From assembly GCA_900322175.1 (NCBI GenBank), contig ONYZ01000004.1, positions 1 to 64,000 on the forward strand: a stretch of DNA of 64,000 nucleotides, written 5' to 3'. Position numbers and translations under genes: made by a program. The notes beneath the pieces are model-generated. The model made no database searches, had not been told where the DNA came from, and saw only the letters and a list, made by a program, of their open reading frames with translations. Shown here one piece after another: positions 18,310-37,503 of the stretch (within the stretch, counting starts at the first letter, position 1; the number at the start of each line of letters is the position of its first letter). The stretch comes from an uncultured Prevotella sp. (lineage in GTDB: Bacteria; Bacteroidota; Bacteroidia; Bacteroidales; Bacteroidaceae).

Positions 18310-19539
18310 CTAATTTTTTTGAAATCTTTGATAACAAAGATAATATTTTCGTATTTTTTTTGAAAGTAACTGAACATTTAGCAATTCAGAAGCCTCCGAA
18401 ATATCCTTGATTTCTCCGTTTTTGTAAAGTATTTGTATCTTGTCGTCATCCACATTATACATATCCTTTTGTATCGTGTTCACACTCATCATATAGTGTG
18501 CGTCATCGTATGATATGTCCATGTGCTTGGCTATGTGGCGCTTCAGTTCGTCGATACGTTCGGGTGTGGGTTCATCCTCCAGTACTTCTACCTTGAATAT
18601 GTGACGGTCTAGCATATCCGTAGCCAGTGTGGCCAGTATCTTGTCGCTGTGGTGCTTCCAAGCCTTCATTGCGCTCCAGATGTCGCTATCGTCCAGCTCG
18701 CTATAATTCTGCAGAGCCTCGGGATGCGACTCGAACCACTCGGCGTCGATGTTGTTTTCTAGGAAGTAGAGTAGGGCGGGCGATGCAAACACCTGTTGCC
18801 CTTGGCGTATCAGCCACTTGGTTCGGTTCAGCATATTTACTAATACCTTTTCGTAGGCCACACATGTTCGGTGCAGATATACTTGCCAGTACATCAGCCG
18901 GCGTGTGGTCAGATAGTTTTCGAGCGAGTAGATACCTTTCTGTTCTACTACAAGCGAATCGTCTATCACATTGAGCATCTTGATGATACGTGCGCTGCCG
19001 ATGTTGCCTTCGGTCACGCCCGTATAGAATGAATCGCGACGCAGATAGTCCAGACGGTCCATGTCTAGCTGACTCGAAATCAGTTGGTGCAGAAAGTTCT
19101 TGGGATACTCTCCCTTGAATATGGATATGGCCAGATTCAGTTGACCGTTCATATCCTTGTTTATCTGCTCCATCATCATCAGCGATATTTCTTCGTGGTC
19201 TATTCCGTGTATCAGCGTGTTCTCAAGTACGTGCGAGAACGGACCGTGACCAATGTCGTGCATCAGTATTGCGGCCTGTACCGCCTCGGCCTCCGAATCG
19301 AAGATAAACTGCCCCTTCTGTTGCAGGTTCTGTATAGCCTCGCTCATCAGGTGGAATGCGCCCAGCGAGTGTTGGAATCGGGTGTGCCTGGCCCCAGGAT
19401 ACACCACAGAGGCCAACCCCAACTGATTGATGCGGTTCAGCCTCTGGAATAGCGGGTGCTCTACTATCCCGTAGAGTATGCCGCGTGGTATCTGGATAAA
19501 CCCGAATACTGGGTCGTTGATGATCTTTACTTCGTTCAT
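18310..19539 (-). CDS. HD-domain phosphohydrolase (dGTPase/SAMHD1-like)
   Basis: The 409-aa product carries the metal-binding HD signature LMHDIGHGPFSH at about residues 92-103 with an earlier ARHTRFQHSLG segment, as in the SAMHD1/YpgQ-like HD phosphohydrolases. Such enzymes often act on dNTPs or other nucleotides. The substrate here is not known. It follows pyrF after about 70 bases that contain a conserved hairpin (19576-19602). Confidence 0.85.
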   Translation of the reverse strand: MNEVKIINDPVFGFIQIPRGILYGIVEHPLFQRLNRINQLGLASVVYPGARHTRFQHSLGAFHLMSEAIQNLQQKGQFIFDSEAEAVQAAILMHDIGHGPFSHVLENTLIHGIDHEEISLMMMEQINKDMNGQLNLAISIFKGEYPKNFLHQLISSQLDMDRLDYLRRDSFYTGVTEGNIGSARIIKMLNVIDDSLVVEQKGIYSLENYLTTRRLMYWQVYLHRTCVAYEKVLVNMLNRTKWLIRQGQQVFASPALLYFLENNIDAEWFESHPEALQNYSELDDSDIWSAMKAWKHHSDKILATLATDMLDRHIFKVEVLEDEPTPERIDELKRHIAKHMDISYDDAHYMMSVNTIQKDMYNVDDDKIQILYKNGEIKDISEASELLNVQLLSKKIRKYYLCYQRFQKN

Positions 19540-29512: not shown

Positions 29513-30835
29513 TTATTTGATGCTCTTGATGGCCACGAACTCTTGGAACTGGCTCTTGTAGCCATTAAACACATTGATGTCGACCTCACCCTGTATGCCC
29601 TTTACGCGACCATCGGGACAAAGTTGCCAGAAGGCCAGTCGCACATCGGGCTTGTACTCGCCGTAGCGTGCTATCCATACATCATAGTCGCGCTTGATAT
29701 CAGGCGCCATCGACAAGTACTTGTTGATAAACATCTGGTTTATATATAAGATAGGTGAAACTCCGCAGCGGCGCTTAACCATTTGGAGCCACACACGTAT
29801 CTGCTGGAACATCTTTTCGGGTCCGCCAGTTGCTTTTATCTGTGCATCGCTAGGCTCTACATCGAGCACAGGTGGCAGATCGCCCTGCTTGAATAGCGTA
29901 TTGTTGATGAAATGCTGAGCCTGAGCCGCACCCGACGACTTGAGTGAGAAGAAGTGATAAGCGCCAATGGGGATGCCCTGTTTGCGGGCGGCAGCATAGT
30001 CGGATACGTAGAATTTGTTGCGTATGCTAGTGCCCTCAGTACTCTTGATGAATATGAACGATACGGGGTAATCAGCATTGCCGTGAACATTCTTATGCGA
30101 CTTGCGCCCCAAGTAGCTGATACTTAGCTGTTTCCAGTTGATGGGGAGGGGACGGCGTCCCTTGCCATGCTGATATCGGGCGATGTCGATGCCATAGATA
30201 CGCTCGGAGGTGTACTTCATGCGTTCGCCCCAGAATCGGTTGTTCTTCCATTCGCCCACCTGCAGTCGTGGATCGCCGTCGGTGGGAGTTAACAGTTGTA
30301 TGCCGAATCCGTCGCGTATGTTATTGGTCCAATGGCCCTCAAAGTAGGTATTGCTGGTGACGTAAGCCCCATGACCATCGGCCTCTGTGCCCTTGAAGTC
30401 GCCCAGATACGTGCCAAGGGTATCTATGCGCAATCCCGTCTTGATGGTATCGGCATCGTAGGTGGCCACGATAGTGAAGCCAGCTGAATCGACGGTAAGA
30501 ACCGTTCCCTCGCGGATGCGATTACGCCACGAGCCTACATTCCATACGGTGAGTCGGCGAGCTGGTTCGATGGTGAGTCGCTTGCCATTGGCAAATGCGG
30601 CCACCATCTCGTAACCCTCGTCCATCACGTTGTGACGGTCGAAGTAATACTTGAATTCATCGTCTAGAGCGGATATAGTATCGCGATGCGCGCTATTATC
30701 GGCAGGGTGTGCGTGTATCGTGTTTCTGATTTCTGTACTAAGCTGCATGCCGCGGTGGGCAGGACGGGGCATCAGATAGGTAGATGCCGATAGCAGCAGC
30801 ATGGGTGATATAATAGATATTAATACCTTTTTCAT
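29513..30835 (-). CDS. GH25 lysozyme with MORN-like N-terminal repeats
   Basis: ATG at 30835 (MKKVLISIISPMLLLSAS, a signal peptide) is chosen; the frame extends much further upstream but crosses the promoter. The 440-aa product has a middle region of MORN-like repeats (GTYLGDFKGTEADGHGAY, GHWTNNIRDGFGIQ) and a C-terminal GH25 muramidase domain (YGIDIARYQHG, FIFIKSTEGTSIRNKFY, PPVLDVEPSD with the catalytic Asp/Glu). It likely cuts peptidoglycan in the periplasm or outside. The operon partner is rlmH. Confidence 0.88.
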   Translation of the reverse strand: MKKVLISIISPMLLLSASTYLMPRPAHRGMQLSTEIRNTIHAHPADNSAHRDTISALDDEFKYYFDRHNVMDEGYEMVAAFANGKRLTIEPARRLTVWNVGSWRNRIREGTVLTVDSAGFTIVATYDADTIKTGLRIDTLGTYLGDFKGTEADGHGAYVTSNTYFEGHWTNNIRDGFGIQLLTPTDGDPRLQVGEWKNNRFWGERMKYTSERIYGIDIARYQHGKGRRPLPINWKQLSISYLGRKSHKNVHGNADYPVSFIFIKSTEGTSIRNKFYVSDYAAARKQGIPIGAYHFFSLKSSGAAQAQHFINNTLFKQGDLPPVLDVEPSDAQIKATGGPEKMFQQIRVWLQMVKRRCGVSPILYINQMFINKYLSMAPDIKRDYDVWIARYGEYKPDVRLAFWQLCPDGRVKGIQGEVDINVFNGYKSQFQEFVAIKSIK

Positions 30836-30856
30836 TAATTTACAACTTTTCGGATG

Positions 30857-30889
30857 CAAAGTTACAAATAAAATTTCTATATTTGCAAA
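30857..30889 (-). promoter_or_regulatory. Promoter for the GH25 lysozyme
   Basis: Minus strand: TTTG at 30889-30886, 21-base gap, TAACTTTG at 30864-30857, 22 bases before the start codon. Confidence 0.7.
30878..30885 (+). promoter_or_regulatory. Possible plus-strand -7 element
   Basis: TATATTTG fits TAnnTTTG and would start a transcript near 30892 that covers a small 18-codon frame and then the leucine leader. No clear -33 TTG. Confidence 0.4.
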
Positions 30890-30907
30890 CGAAACAGTGA
30901 TAAAATT

Positions 30908-30964
30908 ATGAAGAAAGATAAAGTATTGATATACGATTATCCCGCTAAAAGAGGGAAAAAGTAA
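30908..30964 (+). CDS. Candidate 18-aa peptide upstream of the leu leader
   Basis: ATG at 30908 opens an 18-codon frame (MKKDKVLIYDYPAKRGKK) preceded by an A-rich stretch and a possible -7 element 23 bases upstream. Its Lys-rich sequence is not obviously amino-acid sensing. It may be an untranslated chance frame. Confidence 0.25.
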   Translation: MKKDKVLIYDYPAKRGKK

Positions 30965-31002
30965 TAAAATGAAAGATTTTTCGATAAAAAAGTTACGAAT
31001 TG

Positions 31003-31034
31003 TTTGTTTATTCCGAAGATTATGATTAATTTTG
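31003..31034 (+). promoter_or_regulatory. Promoter of the leucine operon
   Basis: TTTG at 31003-31006, 20-base gap, TAATTTTG at 31027-31034. Transcription would start near 31041, nine bases before the leader-peptide ATG. Confidence 0.75.
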
Positions 31035-31049
31035 CAGCCGAAATTAAAA

Positions 31050-31148
31050 ATGAGTACAAGTATGAAGAGTCTAAATCTACTTAATGGCCTAATTATTATT
31101 CGACTGCATGGGGCAGGCGGAAGTGATTTAGGTGTACGCATAAGTTAG
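31050..31148 (+). CDS. Leu/Ile-rich leader peptide of the leucine operon
   Basis: A 32-codon frame begins with ATG at 31050 (or ATG at 31062). Codons 8-19 read Leu-Asn-Leu-Leu-Asn-Gly-Leu-Ile-Ile-Ile-Arg-Leu, with three CTA leucine codons and three ATT isoleucine codons. It is followed by an attenuator hairpin at 31175-31209 whose 5' half can instead pair with 31118-31126 inside this frame. This is the arrangement of ribosome-mediated attenuation: stalling on Leu (or Ile) codons would free 31118-31126 and block the terminator. Too short for routine gene finding. Confidence 0.8.
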   Translation: MSTSMKSLNLLNGLIIIRLHGAGGSDLGVRIS

Positions 31149-31191
31149 ATGTTAAGATAATGAATGTTATATAGAGCCTTTCTCACTTCCG
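31118..31191 (+). promoter_or_regulatory. Antiterminator pairing in the leu leader
   Basis: CGGAAGTGA at 31118-31126 is exactly complementary to TCACTTCCG at 31183-31191, which overlaps the 5' arm and loop of the terminator hairpin. The two structures exclude each other. A ribosome halted on the Leu/Ile codons (31071-31106) leaves this segment free, while one that reaches the stop at 31146 covers it. Confidence 0.7.
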
Positions 31192-31209
31192 AGTGTGAAG
31201 GGCTTTTTT
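31175..31209 (+). terminator. Attenuator terminator before leuA
   Basis: AGCCTTTCTCAC pairs with GTGTGAAGGGCT (one G-U, one mismatch) and is followed by six T residues. It lies 27 bases after the leader-peptide stop and 58 before leuA. Confidence 0.8.
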
Positions 31210-31225
31210 CTTGGAATAAATATCA

Positions 31226-31266
31226 AATTGTAAAATAGTTAAATCGTAAAATTGTAGAATTGTAAA
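31226..31266. repeat. TTGTAAAATAGTTAAATCG linker before leuA
   Basis: The phrase (A)TTGTAAAAT recurs with variants (AAATCGTAAAATTGTAGAAT) up to the leuA start codon. A matching phrase, ATTGTAAAATAGTTAAAATC, lies before leuB (36411-36438). Confidence 0.6.
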
Positions 31267-32769
31267 ATGGAAAGGTTGTTTATTTTCGACACAACGCTCC
31301 GCGACGGCGAACAGGTGCCCGGATGCCAGTTGAACACTGTTGAGAAGATTCAGGTGGCCAAGGCTCTGGAACAACTCGGTGTGGATGTGATCGAAGCAGG
31401 ATTCCCCATCTCAAGTCCAGGCGACTTCAACAGTGTGATTGAGATTTCAAAAGCCGTAACTTGGCCTGTGATTTGTGCGCTGACACGAGCAGTAGAGCGC
31501 GATATCGACGTAGCATTCGAAGCTCTACAGTATGCCAAGCACAAGCGTATCCACACGGGTATCGGTACTAGCGATGAGCATATTCAGTTTAAGTTCAACT
31601 CAACCCGCGAGGAAATCTTGGAGCGTGCCATAGCGGCAACCAAGTATGCCAAGAGATTTGTTGACGATGTGGAGTTCTATTGCGAGGACGCCGGACGCAC
31701 GGATAATGAGTATTTGGCTCAGGTGGTTGAGGCGGTTATCAAGGCCGGAGCAACGGTTGTGAACATACCTGATACCACTGGATATTGTCTGCCCGAGGAA
31801 TATCACGACAAGATAAAGTATCTGATGGAGCATGTGGATAATATTGATCGCGCTATCATCTCTACCCATTGCCATAATGACTTGGGTATGGCTACAGCCA
31901 ACTCGCTTAGTGGAGTGATGGCTGGAGCACGACAGGTGGAGGTGACCATCAACGGAATAGGCGAGCGCGCTGGTAATACATCGCTCGAGGAGATAGCGAT
32001 GATACTGAAGTGTCACAAGCAACTGGAAATCGAGACAAACATCAACACAACCAAGATATATCCTACATCGCGCATGGTTTCCAGTCTGATGAATATGCCC
32101 GTACAACCCAACAAGGCTATCGTAGGCAGAAACGCATTCGCCCACTCTAGCGGAATACATCAGGACGGAGTGCTTAAGAACGTTCATACATACGAGATAA
32201 TGGATCCCAAGGATGTGGGTATTGACGACAATTCTATCGTGCTGACTGCTCGTTCGGGGCGTGCTGCTCTTAAGCATCGTTTGCACGTGAACGGCGTAGA
32301 TCTGTCGGAAGAGAAGTTGGACAAGGTCTACGAGAAGTTCCTGGTATTGGCCGACCAGAAGAAGGAGGTTACAGATGCTGATGCGCTGATGCTTGCTGGT
32401 GCGGATATGGCTGATACTCATGCTGTTAGACTTGATTTTCTACAAGTTACTACAGGTAAGGGCGTGAAGAGTGTTGCCTCTATCGGTATCGATATCAGCG
32501 GACAGAAATTCGAGGCTGCGGCCTCAGGAAACGGTCCTGTGGATGCCGCCATCAAGGCTCTGAAGAAGATAATCATTAAGCAGATGACTCTGAAGGAATT
32601 TACTATTCAGGCAATCTCGAAAGGGTCGGACGATGTGGGTAAAGTACACATGCAGGTGGAGTACGACGGAAGTCTGTACTACGGATTCGGCGCCAACACC
32701 GATATCGTAACCGCTAGCGTAGAAGCATATATCGATTGTATTAACAAATTTAAGACTGAAGAAAAATGA
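31267..32769 (+). CDS. leuA: 2-isopropylmalate synthase
   Basis: LeuA condenses acetyl-CoA and 2-oxoisovalerate, the first step of leucine synthesis. The 500-aa product has the DRE-TIM core ([43 protein letters not shown]) and a C-terminal regulatory domain that usually binds leucine. Its stop overlaps the leuC start (ATGA). Expression is probably set by the upstream leader-peptide attenuator. Confidence 0.96.
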
Positions 32770-34160
32770 ATACACTATTTGATAAGATTTGGGATAAGCA
32801 CGTTGTGCAGAAGGTTGACGACGGACCACAACAGCTTTACATCGACCGACTTTATTGTCACGAGGTGACATCTCCCCAAGCATTCGACGGTATGAGGGCT
32901 CGTGGACTGAAGTGTTTCCGCCCCAAGCAGATATTCTGCATGCCCGACCACAATACGCCTACTCACGATCAGGATAAACCTATCGAGGACCCTGTTTCAA
33001 AGTCTCAGGTAGATGCGCTCGAAAAGAATGCTGCTGAGTTCGGACTTACACACTACGGAATGATGTCTCCAAACAATGGAATAATCCATGTGGTAGGCCC
33101 CGAGAAGGGCCTGAGTCTGCCAGGAATGACGATAGTTTGCGGCGATTCGCACACATCTACTCATGGTGCTATGGGTGCCGTAGCATTCGGCATTGGAACT
33201 AGCGAGGTCGAGATGGTAATGGCGTCGCAATGCATTCTGCAACAGAAGCCTAAGTCAATGAGGATCAGTATCAACGGAGTGCTGGGCAAGGGTGTTACGG
33301 CTAAGGATGTGGCTCTGTATCTGATGGCGCAGATCACCACCAGCGGTGCTACGGGATATTTCATCGAATATGCTGGTTCTACGGTTAAGGCAATGTCGAT
33401 GGAAGGCCGACTGACACTCTGTAATCTCTCGATAGAGATGGGGGCGCGCGGAGGATTTATCGCTCCAGATAGTACAACATTTAATTATATAAAAGGTAGA
33501 GAATATGCGCCAAAGGGCGAAGAGTGGGACAAGGCTGTGGCCTATTGGAAGACGTTGAAGAGTGGCTACGATGCTGTGTTTGATAAGGAACTTACGTTTA
33601 ATGCCGCTGATATCGAGCCTCGCGTCACATACGGAACTAATCCAGGTATGGGCATCGGCATAACAGAAACTGTTCCTGCAAATGCAAAATTAGCCAATTC
33701 GCCCGAAGCTGGTTTTGAGAAAGCTCTGAAATACATGGGATTTGAGGCTGGACAGAAATTGCTGGGTACTAAGGTCGATTATGTGTTCCTAGGTGCTTGT
33801 ACCAACGGACGAATCGAGGATTTCCGTGCGTTTGCATCGCTGGTTAATGGGCGACATAAGGCTAAGGATGTAGTTGCGTGGTTGGTGCCTGGTTCGTGGG
33901 CTGTTGACAAGCAGATCCGGGAAGAGGGTATTGACAAAGTGCTCGAGGAGGCTGGTTTTGAGATCCGTCAACCTGGTTGCTCGGCTTGTTTGGCAATGAA
34001 TGATGACAAGGTTCCCGCCGGCAAACTGAGCGTTTCTACATCAAACCGCAACTTCGAAGGTCGCCAAGGCCCTGGTGCCCGCACCATCTTAGCATCGCCC
34101 CTAACAGCCGCCGCCGCCGCGATTACTGGCGTGATAACTGATCCCCGTGTATTAATTTAA
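32766..34160 (+). CDS. leuC: 3-isopropylmalate dehydratase large subunit
   Basis: LeuC with LeuD isomerises 2- to 3-isopropylmalate. The 464-aa product belongs to the aconitase family and has the 4Fe-4S ligands: one Cys in [11 protein letters not shown] and two in GCSACLAMN, plus [11 protein letters not shown]. Followed by a 106-base gap that holds a large inverted repeat. Confidence 0.97.
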
Positions 34161-34266: not shown

Positions 34267-34863
34267 ATGAAACAGAAATTCAACGTAATAACAAGCACTT
34301 GTGTTCCACTTCCGATGGAAAATGTGGACACCGACCAGATAATACCCGCACGATTCCTGAAGGCTACCACTCGAGAGGAGAAGTTCTTCGGCGATAACCT
34401 GTTCAGAGATTGGCGATATAATGCCGACGGTACGCCCAATAAGGACTTTGTGTTAAACGACCCTCAGTATTCGGGATGCATACTGGTGGCAGGTAAGAAC
34501 TTCGGTTCGGGCTCTAGTCGCGAACATGCCGCTTGGGCTATCGCAGGATATGGTTTTCGTGTGGTTATCAGTTCGTTTTTTGCCGATATCCATAAAAACA
34601 ACGAGTTGAACAACTTTGTGCTCCCAGTAGTGGTGAGCGAGGATTTCTTGAAAGAACTCTTTGCTTCGATAGCTGCAGACCCAAAGACCGAAGTTGAAGT
34701 TGATTTACCCAACCAGAAGGTTACCAATAAGGCTACTGGTCATAGTGAGCATTTCGACATCAATGGATACAAGAAACACTGTTTGATAGAGGGACTCGAT
34801 GATATCGACTTCTTGGTTAGGAACCAACAGAAAACAGAATTATGGGAACAAGCGAACAAGTAA
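34267..34863 (+). CDS. leuD: 3-isopropylmalate dehydratase small subunit
   Basis: The 198-aa LeuD swivel domain has ENVDTDQIIPARFLK and NFGSGSSREHAAWA, the family signatures. It overlaps the next gene by 22 bases. Confidence 0.96.
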   Translation: MKQKFNVITSTCVPLPMENVDTDQIIPARFLKATTREEKFFGDNLFRDWRYNADGTPNKDFVLNDPQYSGCILVAGKNFGSGSSREHAAWAIAGYGFRVVISSFFADIHKNNELNNFVLPVVVSEDFLKELFASIAADPKTEVEVDLPNQKVTNKATGHSEHFDINGYKKHCLIEGLDDIDFLVRNQQKTELWEQANK

Positions 34864-36416
34864 ATAAGTTTAAGCGCGTCCAACCATTTGTGGAGATAAT
34901 GGACTCTACGTTGCGCGATGGCGAACAGACCAGCGGCGTATCGTTCTTGCCCCACGAAAAGCTGATGATGGCCCGCATGCTGATCAACGATCTGAATGTG
35001 GATCGTATTGAGGTGGCTTCGGCACGAGTATCGGATGGCGAGCGCGAGGCGGTGAGTATGATTTGTCGCTATGCCGCCCGTATCGACAAACTGGAAAGGG
35101 TAGAGGTTCTGGGCTTTATCGATGGCGGAAAGAGTATCGACTGGGTCGCAGAATGTGGTTGCAAAACCGTGAATCTGCTGGCTAAGGGTTCGTTGAAACA
35201 TTGCACCCAACAACTACAGAAATCGCCCGAGGAGCATATTGAGGATATCCATCGTGAGGTGAGGTATGCCCACTCTAAGGGCATCACCGTCAATCTGTAT
35301 CTGGAGGATTGGAGCAATGGCATGAAGGATTCGCCATCATACGTCTATACGCTGATGGATGCCCTTTGCGATGTGGGTATTCGTAGATTCATGTTGCCCG
35401 ATACGCTTGGTATTATGAACCCTCTGCAGTGTATCGAGTATTTCCGCAAGATGCTTAAGCGCTATCCCGATACGCATTTTGATTTCCACGCCCACAACGA
35501 CTACGATCTGGCCGTGTCGAACTCGCTTGCCGCTGTGCTGAGTGGCGCCAAGGGTTTGCACGTAACGGTGAATGGACTGGGCGAGCGATGCGGTAATGCA
35601 CCGCTATCCAGCGTTCAGGTGATTCTGAAGGATCAGTTTAATGCCCGCACCAATATCCGCGAGGATAAGTTGAACGACATTTCGCGAATGGTGGAGAGCT
35701 ATAGTGGTATAGCCGTTGCGCCTAACCAACCGATTATCGGCGACAATGTGTTTACCCAAGTTGCCGGCGTGCATGCCGATGGCGACAAGAAAGACAATCT
35801 GTACTGTAACGCTTTGGTGCCAGAGAGATTCGGAAGAAAACGCGAATATGCCCTAGGCAAAAATAGTGGCAAGGCCAACATCGCCAAGAATCTGGAAGAA
35901 CTCGGACTGGAACTTACGCCTGAGCAGACGCGCCGTGTAACCCAGCGTATCACTGAACTTGGCGACAAGAAGGAGATTGTGACTCAAGAAGACCTGCCTT
36001 TCATCGTAAGTGACGTGCTGAAACATGATGCACCTGAGGATAAAGTAAAGTTGGTAAGTTACGTAGTATCAACGGCTTACGGATTGAAGCCAGGTGCAAA
36101 TATCAAGGTTGAGATTAATGGTAAGGAATATGAGGCCAGTGCCACTGGTGATGGTCAGTATGACGCCTTTGTGAAGTCGTTGCGATACATCTACAAGAAG
36201 TATCTCGACCGCACTTTTCCCATCTTGCAGAACTATGCCGTTACCATCCCACCTGGCGGACGAACCGATGCGCTGGTACAGACCGTTATCACTTGGAACG
36301 ACAACGGCAAAATATTCCGCACCCGCGGACTGGATGCCGACCAGACTGAAGCGGCTATTAAGGCTACATTCAAGATGCTGAACATTTACGAGAATGAAAA
36401 GAGTGGAGAATTGTAA
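34842..36416 (+). CDS. Second HMGL-like synthase with regulatory domain (citramalate or isopropylmalate synthase)
   Basis: The 524-aa product is a paralogue of LeuA: MDSTLRDGEQTSGVSF, DFHAHNDYDLAVSNS and NGLGERCGNAPLSS mark the catalytic barrel, and residues about 390-515 form a LeuA/CimA-type allosteric domain. Inside leuACD-B it may be citramalate synthase, feeding isoleucine synthesis through the same LeuCDB enzymes; the Ile codons in the leader fit this. A second isopropylmalate synthase is the alternative. It is embedded in leuD-leuB and overlaps leuD. Confidence 0.8.
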   Translation: MGTSEQVNKFKRVQPFVEIMDSTLRDGEQTSGVSFLPHEKLMMARMLINDLNVDRIEVASARVSDGEREAVSMICRYAARIDKLERVEVLGFIDGGKSIDWVAECGCKTVNLLAKGSLKHCTQQLQKSPEEHIEDIHREVRYAHSKGITVNLYLEDWSNGMKDSPSYVYTLMDALCDVGIRRFMLPDTLGIMNPLQCIEYFRKMLKRYPDTHFDFHAHNDYDLAVSNSLAAVLSGAKGLHVTVNGLGERCGNAPLSSVQVILKDQFNARTNIREDKLNDISRMVESYSGIAVAPNQPIIGDNVFTQVAGVHADGDKKDNLYCNALVPERFGRKREYALGKNSGKANIAKNLEELGLELTPEQTRRVTQRITELGDKKEIVTQEDLPFIVSDVLKHDAPEDKVKLVSYVVSTAYGLKPGANIKVEINGKEYEASATGDGQYDAFVKSLRYIYKKYLDRTFPILQNYAVTIPPGGRTDALVQTVITWNDNGKIFRTRGLDADQTEAAIKATFKMLNIYENEKSGEL

Positions 36417-36438: not shown

Positions 36439-37503
36439 ATGAAACTGAAAATTGCTGTATTAGAGGGCGATGGTATCGGCCCAGAGATTATGAAACAAGG
36501 TGTGGCTGTGCTCGATGCAATAGGCGAGAAGTTTGGTCATGAGTTTGAATATACCCCTGCTATCTGTGGCGCTCATGCCATCGAAGAGGTTGGCGATCCA
36601 TATCCCGATGCTACTCACGAGGTGTGTATGCAGGCCGATGCTGTATTGTTCGCGGCCGTTGGTTCGCTCAAGTTCGACAACGATCCTACGGCTAAGATTC
36701 GTCCTGAGACAGGCTTGCTGGCTATGCGCAAAAAGTTGGGATTGTTTGCAAATGTGCGTCCTGTAGCTACATTTGATTGCTTGTTACACAAGTCGCCACT
36801 TAAGGAAGAACTCTTGAAGGGGGCCGACTTTGTTGTTATCCGCGAACTTACAGGAGGTATGTACTTCGGTGCTAAGTATCAGGATAACGATAAAGCCTAC
36901 GATACCAATGTATATACCCGTCCGGAGGTAGAGCGTATTCTGAAAGTTGGTTTCGAGATGGCGATGACTCGAAAGAAACATTTAACTGTAGTGGATAAGG
37001 CTAATGTGCTGGCTTCTAGTCGCTTATGGCGTCAGATAGCCAAAGAGATGGAGTCGCAATATCCTGAGGTCACTACCGACTATATGTTTGTCGACAATGC
37101 CTCGATGCGTGTGCTCACGGAGCCTCGCTATTTCGATGTGATTGTGACCGAGAATACCTTTGGCGATATCCTGACCGACGAGACCAGCTGCATTACTGGT
37201 TCGATGGGACTCCAGCCTTCATCATCGCTTGGCGAGCATACTCCGCTGTTCGAACCCGTACATGGTTCATGGCCCCAGGCTGCTGGACAGAATCTGGCCA
37301 ACCCGATAGCACAGATTCTCTCGGCCGCTATGATGCTTGAACATTTCGGTCTGAATGCTGAGGGAGATCTTATCCGCAAGGCCGTAACAGCATCGCTCGA
37401 TGCCAATGTGCGCACTCCTGAAATCCAGGTAGAAGGAGGCGAAAAATATGGCACCCGCGAGGTAGGAGAGTGGATAGTAAATTATATAAAGAATGCGAAG
37501 TAA
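36439..37503 (+). CDS. leuB: 3-isopropylmalate dehydrogenase
   Basis: LeuB oxidises and decarboxylates 3-isopropylmalate with NAD. The 354-aa product shows [21 protein letters not shown], the Tyr/Lys catalytic region and [12 protein letters not shown]-like [15 protein letters not shown], then [18 protein letters not shown]. Overlaps the TPR gene by 11 bases. Confidence 0.97.

Follow-up and report, generated by a model that had tools for sequence, protein, structure and literature searches.

A conserved leader ahead of the leu operon of an uncultured Prevotella is very probably a ribosome-mediated attenuator

The leu, ilvB and ilvGMEDA leaders of enterobacteria are classical ribosome-mediated attenuators of branched-chain amino-acid operons. 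Here we describe a leader at positions 31003–31209 of a 64,000-nucleotide stretch of DNA from an uncultured Prevotella sp. of the rumen (GenBank assembly GCA_900322175.1, contig ONYZ01000004.1, positions 1 to 64,000 of the forward strand; this whole stretch is called the window below), which precedes a leu operon and very probably acts in the same way. Like the enterobacterial leaders, it combines a short leader peptide with control codons, four competing RNA strands, an intrinsic terminator and an operon that matches the codons. Unlike them, it has no Shine–Dalgarno sequence, carries a −33/−7 promoter, mixes Leu with Ile codons in a way that fits the citramalate-synthase-like (cimA-like) gene of the operon, and matched none of the 4227 models of Rfam release 15, either at the gathering threshold in the window or at E <= 1 in 30950–31270. 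Within the same phylum, work on Flavobacterium psychrophilum has suggested attenuation by leader peptides ahead of operons for amino-acid biosynthesis (PMC9723704), and small open reading frames (ORFs) in long 5′ untranslated regions of Bacteroides thetaiotaomicron point to leader peptides (PMC7366714); these are likewise peptides of 5′ untranslated regions, whereas the relevant passages of the two papers mention neither a leu leader nor alternative pairing or covariation. The actinobacterial LEU element also places an ORF with leucine codons before leuA, but as that source describes it the leucine codon run pairs with the leuA Shine–Dalgarno box (PMC1262725), whereas here the codon-bearing strand pairs inside the leader and a terminator is switched; by eye, no such box stands just before leuA in the window. 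No description of this leu leader was found in the literature searched, a search that misses most subscription journals. The attenuation design itself is textbook, and this leader adds a case to a known mechanism; related gut bacteria, in which switches of this sort are scarcely annotated, conserve it well.

A first-pass annotation, made from the sequence alone, had proposed a ribosome-mediated attenuator at this place, and comparative sequence now supports that reading through conservation and covariation. The region holds a promoter of the phylum type, then a short frame, then a terminator, and leuA begins 57 bases further on, so the intrinsic terminator sits between the leader frame and the first gene. 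Four RNA strands can be distinguished (Table 1). The terminator hairpin that had been proposed is present (stem at about 31173–31206 with one U·U mismatch, −17.4 to −17.5 kcal/mol; six T at 31204–31209), and so is the alternative pairing, in which the 9-base arms 31118–31126 and 31183–31191 are exact complements. Strand 3 is common to the antiterminator (2:3) and the terminator (3:4), which are therefore mutually exclusive. To these we add strand 1, which the annotation did not name: it carries the control codons and otherwise sequesters strand 2. When the part from 31107 on was folded, with strand 1 omitted to mimic a ribosome sitting on it, the antiterminator came out as the predicted minimum (−25.8); with strand 1 included, the minimum was the 1:2 helix plus the terminator (−38.5).

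We consider it very likely that the leader is a classical four-strand transcription attenuator sensing charged leucine and isoleucine tRNA. From these elements we infer the transcription start, operon transcription, translation, stalling, termination and the starvation response, as follows. RNA polymerase would start near 31041, and a ribosome would start the leader peptide at 31062. With leucine and isoleucine plentiful, the ribosome would pass CTA-ATT-ATT-ATT-CGA-CTG and either 1:2 would pair or the ribosome would sit on strand 2; strand 3 would pair with strand 4, and transcription would end at the T-run near 31209. With leucine or isoleucine short, the ribosome would stall on strand 1, the freed strand 2 would pair with 31183–31191, and this pairing would block the terminator, so that leuA-leuC-leuD-cimA-leuB would be transcribed. 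The switch would thus very probably turn the leu operon on when either amino acid is short.

Conservation was assessed on leuA upstream regions gathered from 80 genome contigs and from genomes of the genus, family, order and phylum, 179 of which are distinct over their last 260 bases. A loose detector, asking for a terminator and a Leu/Ile-rich ORF, passed 133 of the 179; three of these (L129, L131 and L188) were removed by eye as false, leaving the 130 detected leaders on which the promoter counts below are based. A strict detector, which additionally requires the 2:3 duplex, passed 125 of 154 order-level regions (L105 and L128 being excluded for short upstream DNA) versus 1 of 462 dinucleotide shuffles. 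The passes comprised 77 of 80 near genome contigs, 23 of 33 regions of the genus itself, 16 of 22 from other genera of the family and 9 of 19 from other families. Outside the order none of 23 regions passed; in several cases there, by eye, leuA follows leuB or another gene, and any leader heading such an operon would escape detection. Frame and hairpin, on whose retention in relatives the first-pass annotation had staked its reading, are thus kept. Examples of the leader include Phocaeicola massiliensis, whose record carries no annotation, and Parabacteroides distasonis, whose record lists no leader gene in a gene table that is incomplete by its own description. A covariance model built from the leader (R1) found a single place at E <= 0.01 in the leader's own genome, namely this leader, with 81 of 766 first-look candidates scored; in the order it matched at that threshold in 36 of 99 genomes drawn, chance matches included. 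We give practically no credence to a chance arrangement of common sequence, an explanation that could draw on the weak simple scans and weak single-sequence fold described below and that is refuted by the conservation in real regions over shuffles and by the covariation of the pairings.

The annotation had also suggested a search for covarying pairs upstream of related leuA genes, and in the alignment we used (A1) all three helices covary. This alignment holds 34 chosen leaders out of 37 references, L120 and L169 having been omitted for poor alignment and L140 without good reason, so the selection may favour structure. The 2:3 helix was paired in 93.2% of cells versus 35–57% when slid, and 14 cells changed on both sides versus 4.2 +/- 1.7 in shuffles (0 of 500 as high). 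For the 1:2 helix the corresponding values were 77.8% versus 44–51%, with 33 double changes versus 15.2 +/- 3.2 (0 of 500), and for the 3:4 terminator helix 92.2% versus 29–65%, with 29 versus 8.4 +/- 2.4 (0 of 500); these shuffles do not preserve relatedness. Other measures were less extreme, in that further 2:3 pair types were reached by 71 of 500 shuffles and 1:2 double-change pairs by 46 of 500. Independently of any alignment, the leaders' own strand 2/strand 3 duplexes summed to −507.2 kcal/mol versus −404.3 +/- 14.5 when partners were permuted (none of 20,000 permutations reached so low a sum), in 29 leaders hand-picked for divergence and originally found through ORF and terminator, not through 2:3 complementarity. 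Partner specificity is a property of the sum: in only 3 of the 29 (L103, L107 and L143) does strand 2 bind its own strand 3 better than all 28 foreign ones, and row by row foreign strands often bind equally well (23 of 28 for L159). These pairings also bear on the idea that a small RNA with a function elsewhere is the main product, terminator and leader being real and attenuation incidental. A transcript ending near 31209 would indeed be a short RNA in rich medium, but a plain small RNA needs neither a conserved alternative pairing nor control codons, and we regard this as highly improbable.

The short frame had been read as 32 codons rich in Leu and Ile, from ATG 31050 to TAG 31146–31148 (MSTSMKSLNLLNGLIIIRLHGAGGSDLGVRIS). 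Its three CTA codons (31071, 31077 and 31089) and three ATT codons (31092–31100) stand, whereas the start is more likely the second ATG, at 31062, which gives 28 codons: relatives conserve the peptide from there on (MKSLNLLNGLIIIRL...), and since the residues ahead of it differ, 31062 is the likelier start. An additional in-frame ATG ahead of the conserved start occurs in near relatives such as L001 and L011 and is absent from most. CTA, which had been called rare-looking, is only moderately uncommon, at 9.4% of Leu codons in 40 long ORFs of the window, where TTA is still less frequent (4.7%); among the Ile codons of these ORFs, ATT is used least (20.9%). These Leu and Ile codons precede leuA-leuC-leuD-cimA-leuB and so match the operon product. 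The sequence elements, their conservation and covariation, and a codon content that tracks the product are direct observations. In the first eight ORF codons, which lie outside the helices, third codon positions have the highest mean variation (0.268 versus 0.156 and 0.179 among 32 distinct relatives), a modest difference. Modest as it is, it argues against an RNA switch whose ligand is a metabolite, tRNA or protein and which leaves the frame untranslated; such a switch would share the conserved, structured leader and terminator seen here, but the Rfam search returned no match in the window or at 30950–31270, and among leaders of other operons valine content tracks the operon product (see below), making this a very unlikely explanation.

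A further reading assigns the stall to the nascent peptide, in which a conserved Arg-Leu (CGA CTG) after the Ile run would arrest the ribosome, free leucine possibly serving as ligand, and codon starvation would play a secondary part. Of 43 order-level regions upstream of leuA, 13 contain CGACTG or CGACTT versus 3.1 expected from base shuffles, all of these from other genera except L125, and CGA makes up 53.6% of Arg codons in 97 near-relative leaders versus 11.4% in genes of the window. However, CGACTG is part of strand 1, where it pairs with strand 2, and this explains its conservation as RNA; leaders of other genera that have no Arg (L119 IILLGK, L158 IILLAK and L168 IILLAN) retain the switch; and leaders of ilvD, hisG and trpE tend to exchange the amino acid according to product. 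Peptide arrest therefore seems quite unlikely, and we favour codon-dependent attenuation.

The proposed promoter is likewise present. Its two elements, TTTG and TAATTTTG, are 20 nt apart, and the −33/−7 pattern is the promoter type of the Bacteroidetes phylum. It is common in relatives: TAnnTTTG lies <=75 nt from the leader ATG in 123 of the 130 detected leaders, 122 of which also have TTG at the −33 spacing. A simple promoter scan of the locus found none because it does not cover this promoter type. The annotation had further treated the missing Shine–Dalgarno sequence as noteworthy, which is not borne out: its absence is described as the rule in Bacteroidetes (PMC6847099) and as normal in Prevotella, with Prevotella bryantii as the example shown (PMC3155529). 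The leader offers a clean test of transcription–translation coupling in a phylum that initiates without Shine–Dalgarno sequences. According to one review, runaway transcription could be fairly common among bacteria (PMC7858274); an attenuator of the ribosome-mediated type, if it works here, would argue against it at these genes.

The operon runs leuA, leuC, leuD, a second synthase and leuB, all in the same direction. The second synthase is nearest to citramalate synthase: its best solved relative is the Leptospira citramalate synthase 3ble (399.7 bits), followed by a chain at 195.1 bits. In 12 genomes, we compared the bit scores of three threonine dehydratase models. In the leader's own genome and five other LeuA-bearing genomes (together G000, G002, G006, G007, G061 and G063) they scored <=77 bits, on frames whose sizes and places suit other enzymes of the fold; in G004, which has no LeuA match, they scored 481, 316 and 301 bits, and they reached their own cut-offs in 5, 2 and 3 of 14 control genomes, respectively. 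Isoleucine is thus probably made by the citramalate route through LeuBCD. The citramalate-synthase-like enzyme would explain why Leu and Ile codons occur together, as LeuBCD would serve both the isopropylmalate route to leucine and the citramalate route to isoleucine, and a leader reading both amino acids makes sense if isoleucine comes this way. If true, the leu leader would be a two-amino-acid gate on a pathway common to leucine and citramalate-derived isoleucine. More broadly, the leader is a candidate for regulating how rumen and gut bacteria make branched-chain amino acids.

Table 1. Features of the leader and the operon behind it (window coordinates)
Feature	Position	Strand	Basis
−33 promoter element TTTG	31003..31006	+	Sequence; TTG at that spacing in 122/130 detected leaders
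−7 promoter element TAATTTTG	31027..31034	+	Sequence; TAnnTTTG in 123/130 detected leaders
Leader peptide ORF MKSLNLLNGLIIIRLHGAGGSDLGVRIS, stop TAG 31146–31148	31062..31148	+	Peptide kept in relatives; alternative in-frame ATG 31050
Strand 1, control codons CTA, ATT, ATT, ATT, CGA, CTG; pairs with strand 2	31087..31107	+	Fold; covariation in 34 leaders
Strand 2, antiterminator half, core 31118–31126	31113..31133	+	Complementarity, fold, covariation, permuted-partner test
Strand 3, terminator 5′ arm and loop; 31183–31191 pairs with 31118–31126	31173..31191	+	Complementarity, fold, covariation
Strand 4, terminator 3′ arm and T-run 31204–31209	31192..31209	+	Fold, covariation
leuA, 2-isopropylmalate synthase	31267..32769	+	TIGR00973, 670.2 bits (cut-off 598.7)
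leuC	32766..34160	+	TIGR00170, 630.7 bits (cut-off 560.25)
leuD	34267..34863	+	TIGR00171, 187.5 bits (cut-off 116.25)
Citramalate-synthase-like (cimA-like)	34842..36416	+	NF042433, 624 bits (below cut-off 950); best isopropylmalate synthase model 365.4
leuB	36439..37503	+	TIGR00169, 425.8 bits (cut-off 353.2)

Several observations weigh against an attenuator of this kind. The strict detector fails in 29 of the 154 order-level regions, including 10 of 33 in the genus itself, where about a third of the genomes have no detectable leader, and some failures have leuA directly behind the promoter; others, among them L132, L133, L144, L163 and L174, look leader-like by eye. Most of the 154 regions come from close relatives and are not independent, near relatives supplying most of the count. 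With strand 1 free and strand 4 not yet made, 2:3 is the predicted minimum (−26.3), so termination would need 1:2 to form first and to hold kinetically. The single-sequence fold stands out only slightly from shuffles (z −1.81; 7 of 200 equal or surpass it), and a simple terminator scan of the locus found none, because the stem has a mismatch; the weight of evidence for the switch lies with the relatives and not with this fold. In the window the stop codon falls 22 nt beyond the strand 2 core, against a median of 16 (range 0–34) in 93 leaders that have this exact core, so a ribosome that has reached the stop could leave the core uncovered; release over strand 2 or just past it would be compatible with termination either way. 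The cimA-like gene scores under the NF042433 cut-off, and the genome is about 83% complete.

The leu attenuator probably belongs to a wider habit of Bacteroidales. The search of the order with model R1 brought in 29 loci, 24 of which were inspected, with genes recognised by their first residues. Leaders were found before leuA (9), ilvD (9, plus L220, assigned to ilvD by sequence) and an asnB-like gene (1); the remaining four (L223, L228, L229 and L231) had no leader and look like chance matches. Valine made up a fraction of 0.073 of Leu, Ile and Val residues in 38 leuA leaders outside the genus (L160 and L161 being weak calls) versus 0.348 in 11 ilvD leaders (Mann–Whitney p = 3.2e-5), and VV was present in 4 of 38 versus 8 of 11; among the ilvD leaders, L212 and L221 are poor in valine or lack it. 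His-codon runs occur in short ORFs before 3 of 11 hisG loci (L232, L236 and L237) and Trp-codon runs before 4 of 12 trpE loci (L243, L245, L246 and L250), all in other families of the order and none at the 6 hisG and 8 trpE loci of the genus itself. These loci were judged by their codon runs, no trpE match reached its family cut-off, and for L233, L239 and L251, at contig edges, the position of the gene is a guess. We lean towards the view that ribosome-mediated attenuation is general and ancient in Bacteroidales amino-acid operons (Leu and Ile for leu, Val for ilv, His for his, Trp for trp and perhaps Asn for asn), free of Shine–Dalgarno sequences and with lineage-specific losses, the genus itself keeping leu. 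If true, transcription and translation would be kinetically coupled at these leaders in the phylum.

Individual loci of this survey showed further features. Leader peptides with valine runs, followed by terminators, stand before ilvD at L217 (MKLLNTVLVVVVVVVLKNIE), L227, L210, L148, L150 and others. At L216, positions 1345–1650 hold a tandem pair of leader ORF–terminator units before ilvD (model matches G297:C25:18248-18391 and 18404-18545), and at L230 an Asn-rich leader (MFILNNFNLLINNNPFER) with a hairpin and T-run precedes the asparagine-synthetase-like gene.

We also considered CGACTTAGC as a leuA element recurring across the phylum. It occurs before leuA in 5 of 66 regions (1 of 43 within the order and 4 of 23 outside it; 0.0 expected in base shuffles), and the idea was dropped: the motif was picked post hoc, RNA pairing explains the conservation within the order, and the copy of L145 appears, by eye, to lie within the end of a coding gene. 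In L192 and L193, from high-GC members of the phylum, CGACTTAGC lies in a GC-rich stretch upstream of leuA with a possible short frame.

Two other features adjoin the leader in the window. Between the terminator and leuA, 31225–31268 is an imperfect A/T-rich repeat of four overlapping 20-nt copies, 8 bases apart. On the minus strand, a divergent ORF of 542 aa (29513–31141) extends mechanically through the leader; judged by eye, its true start probably lies close to MKKVLISII, well clear of the leader.
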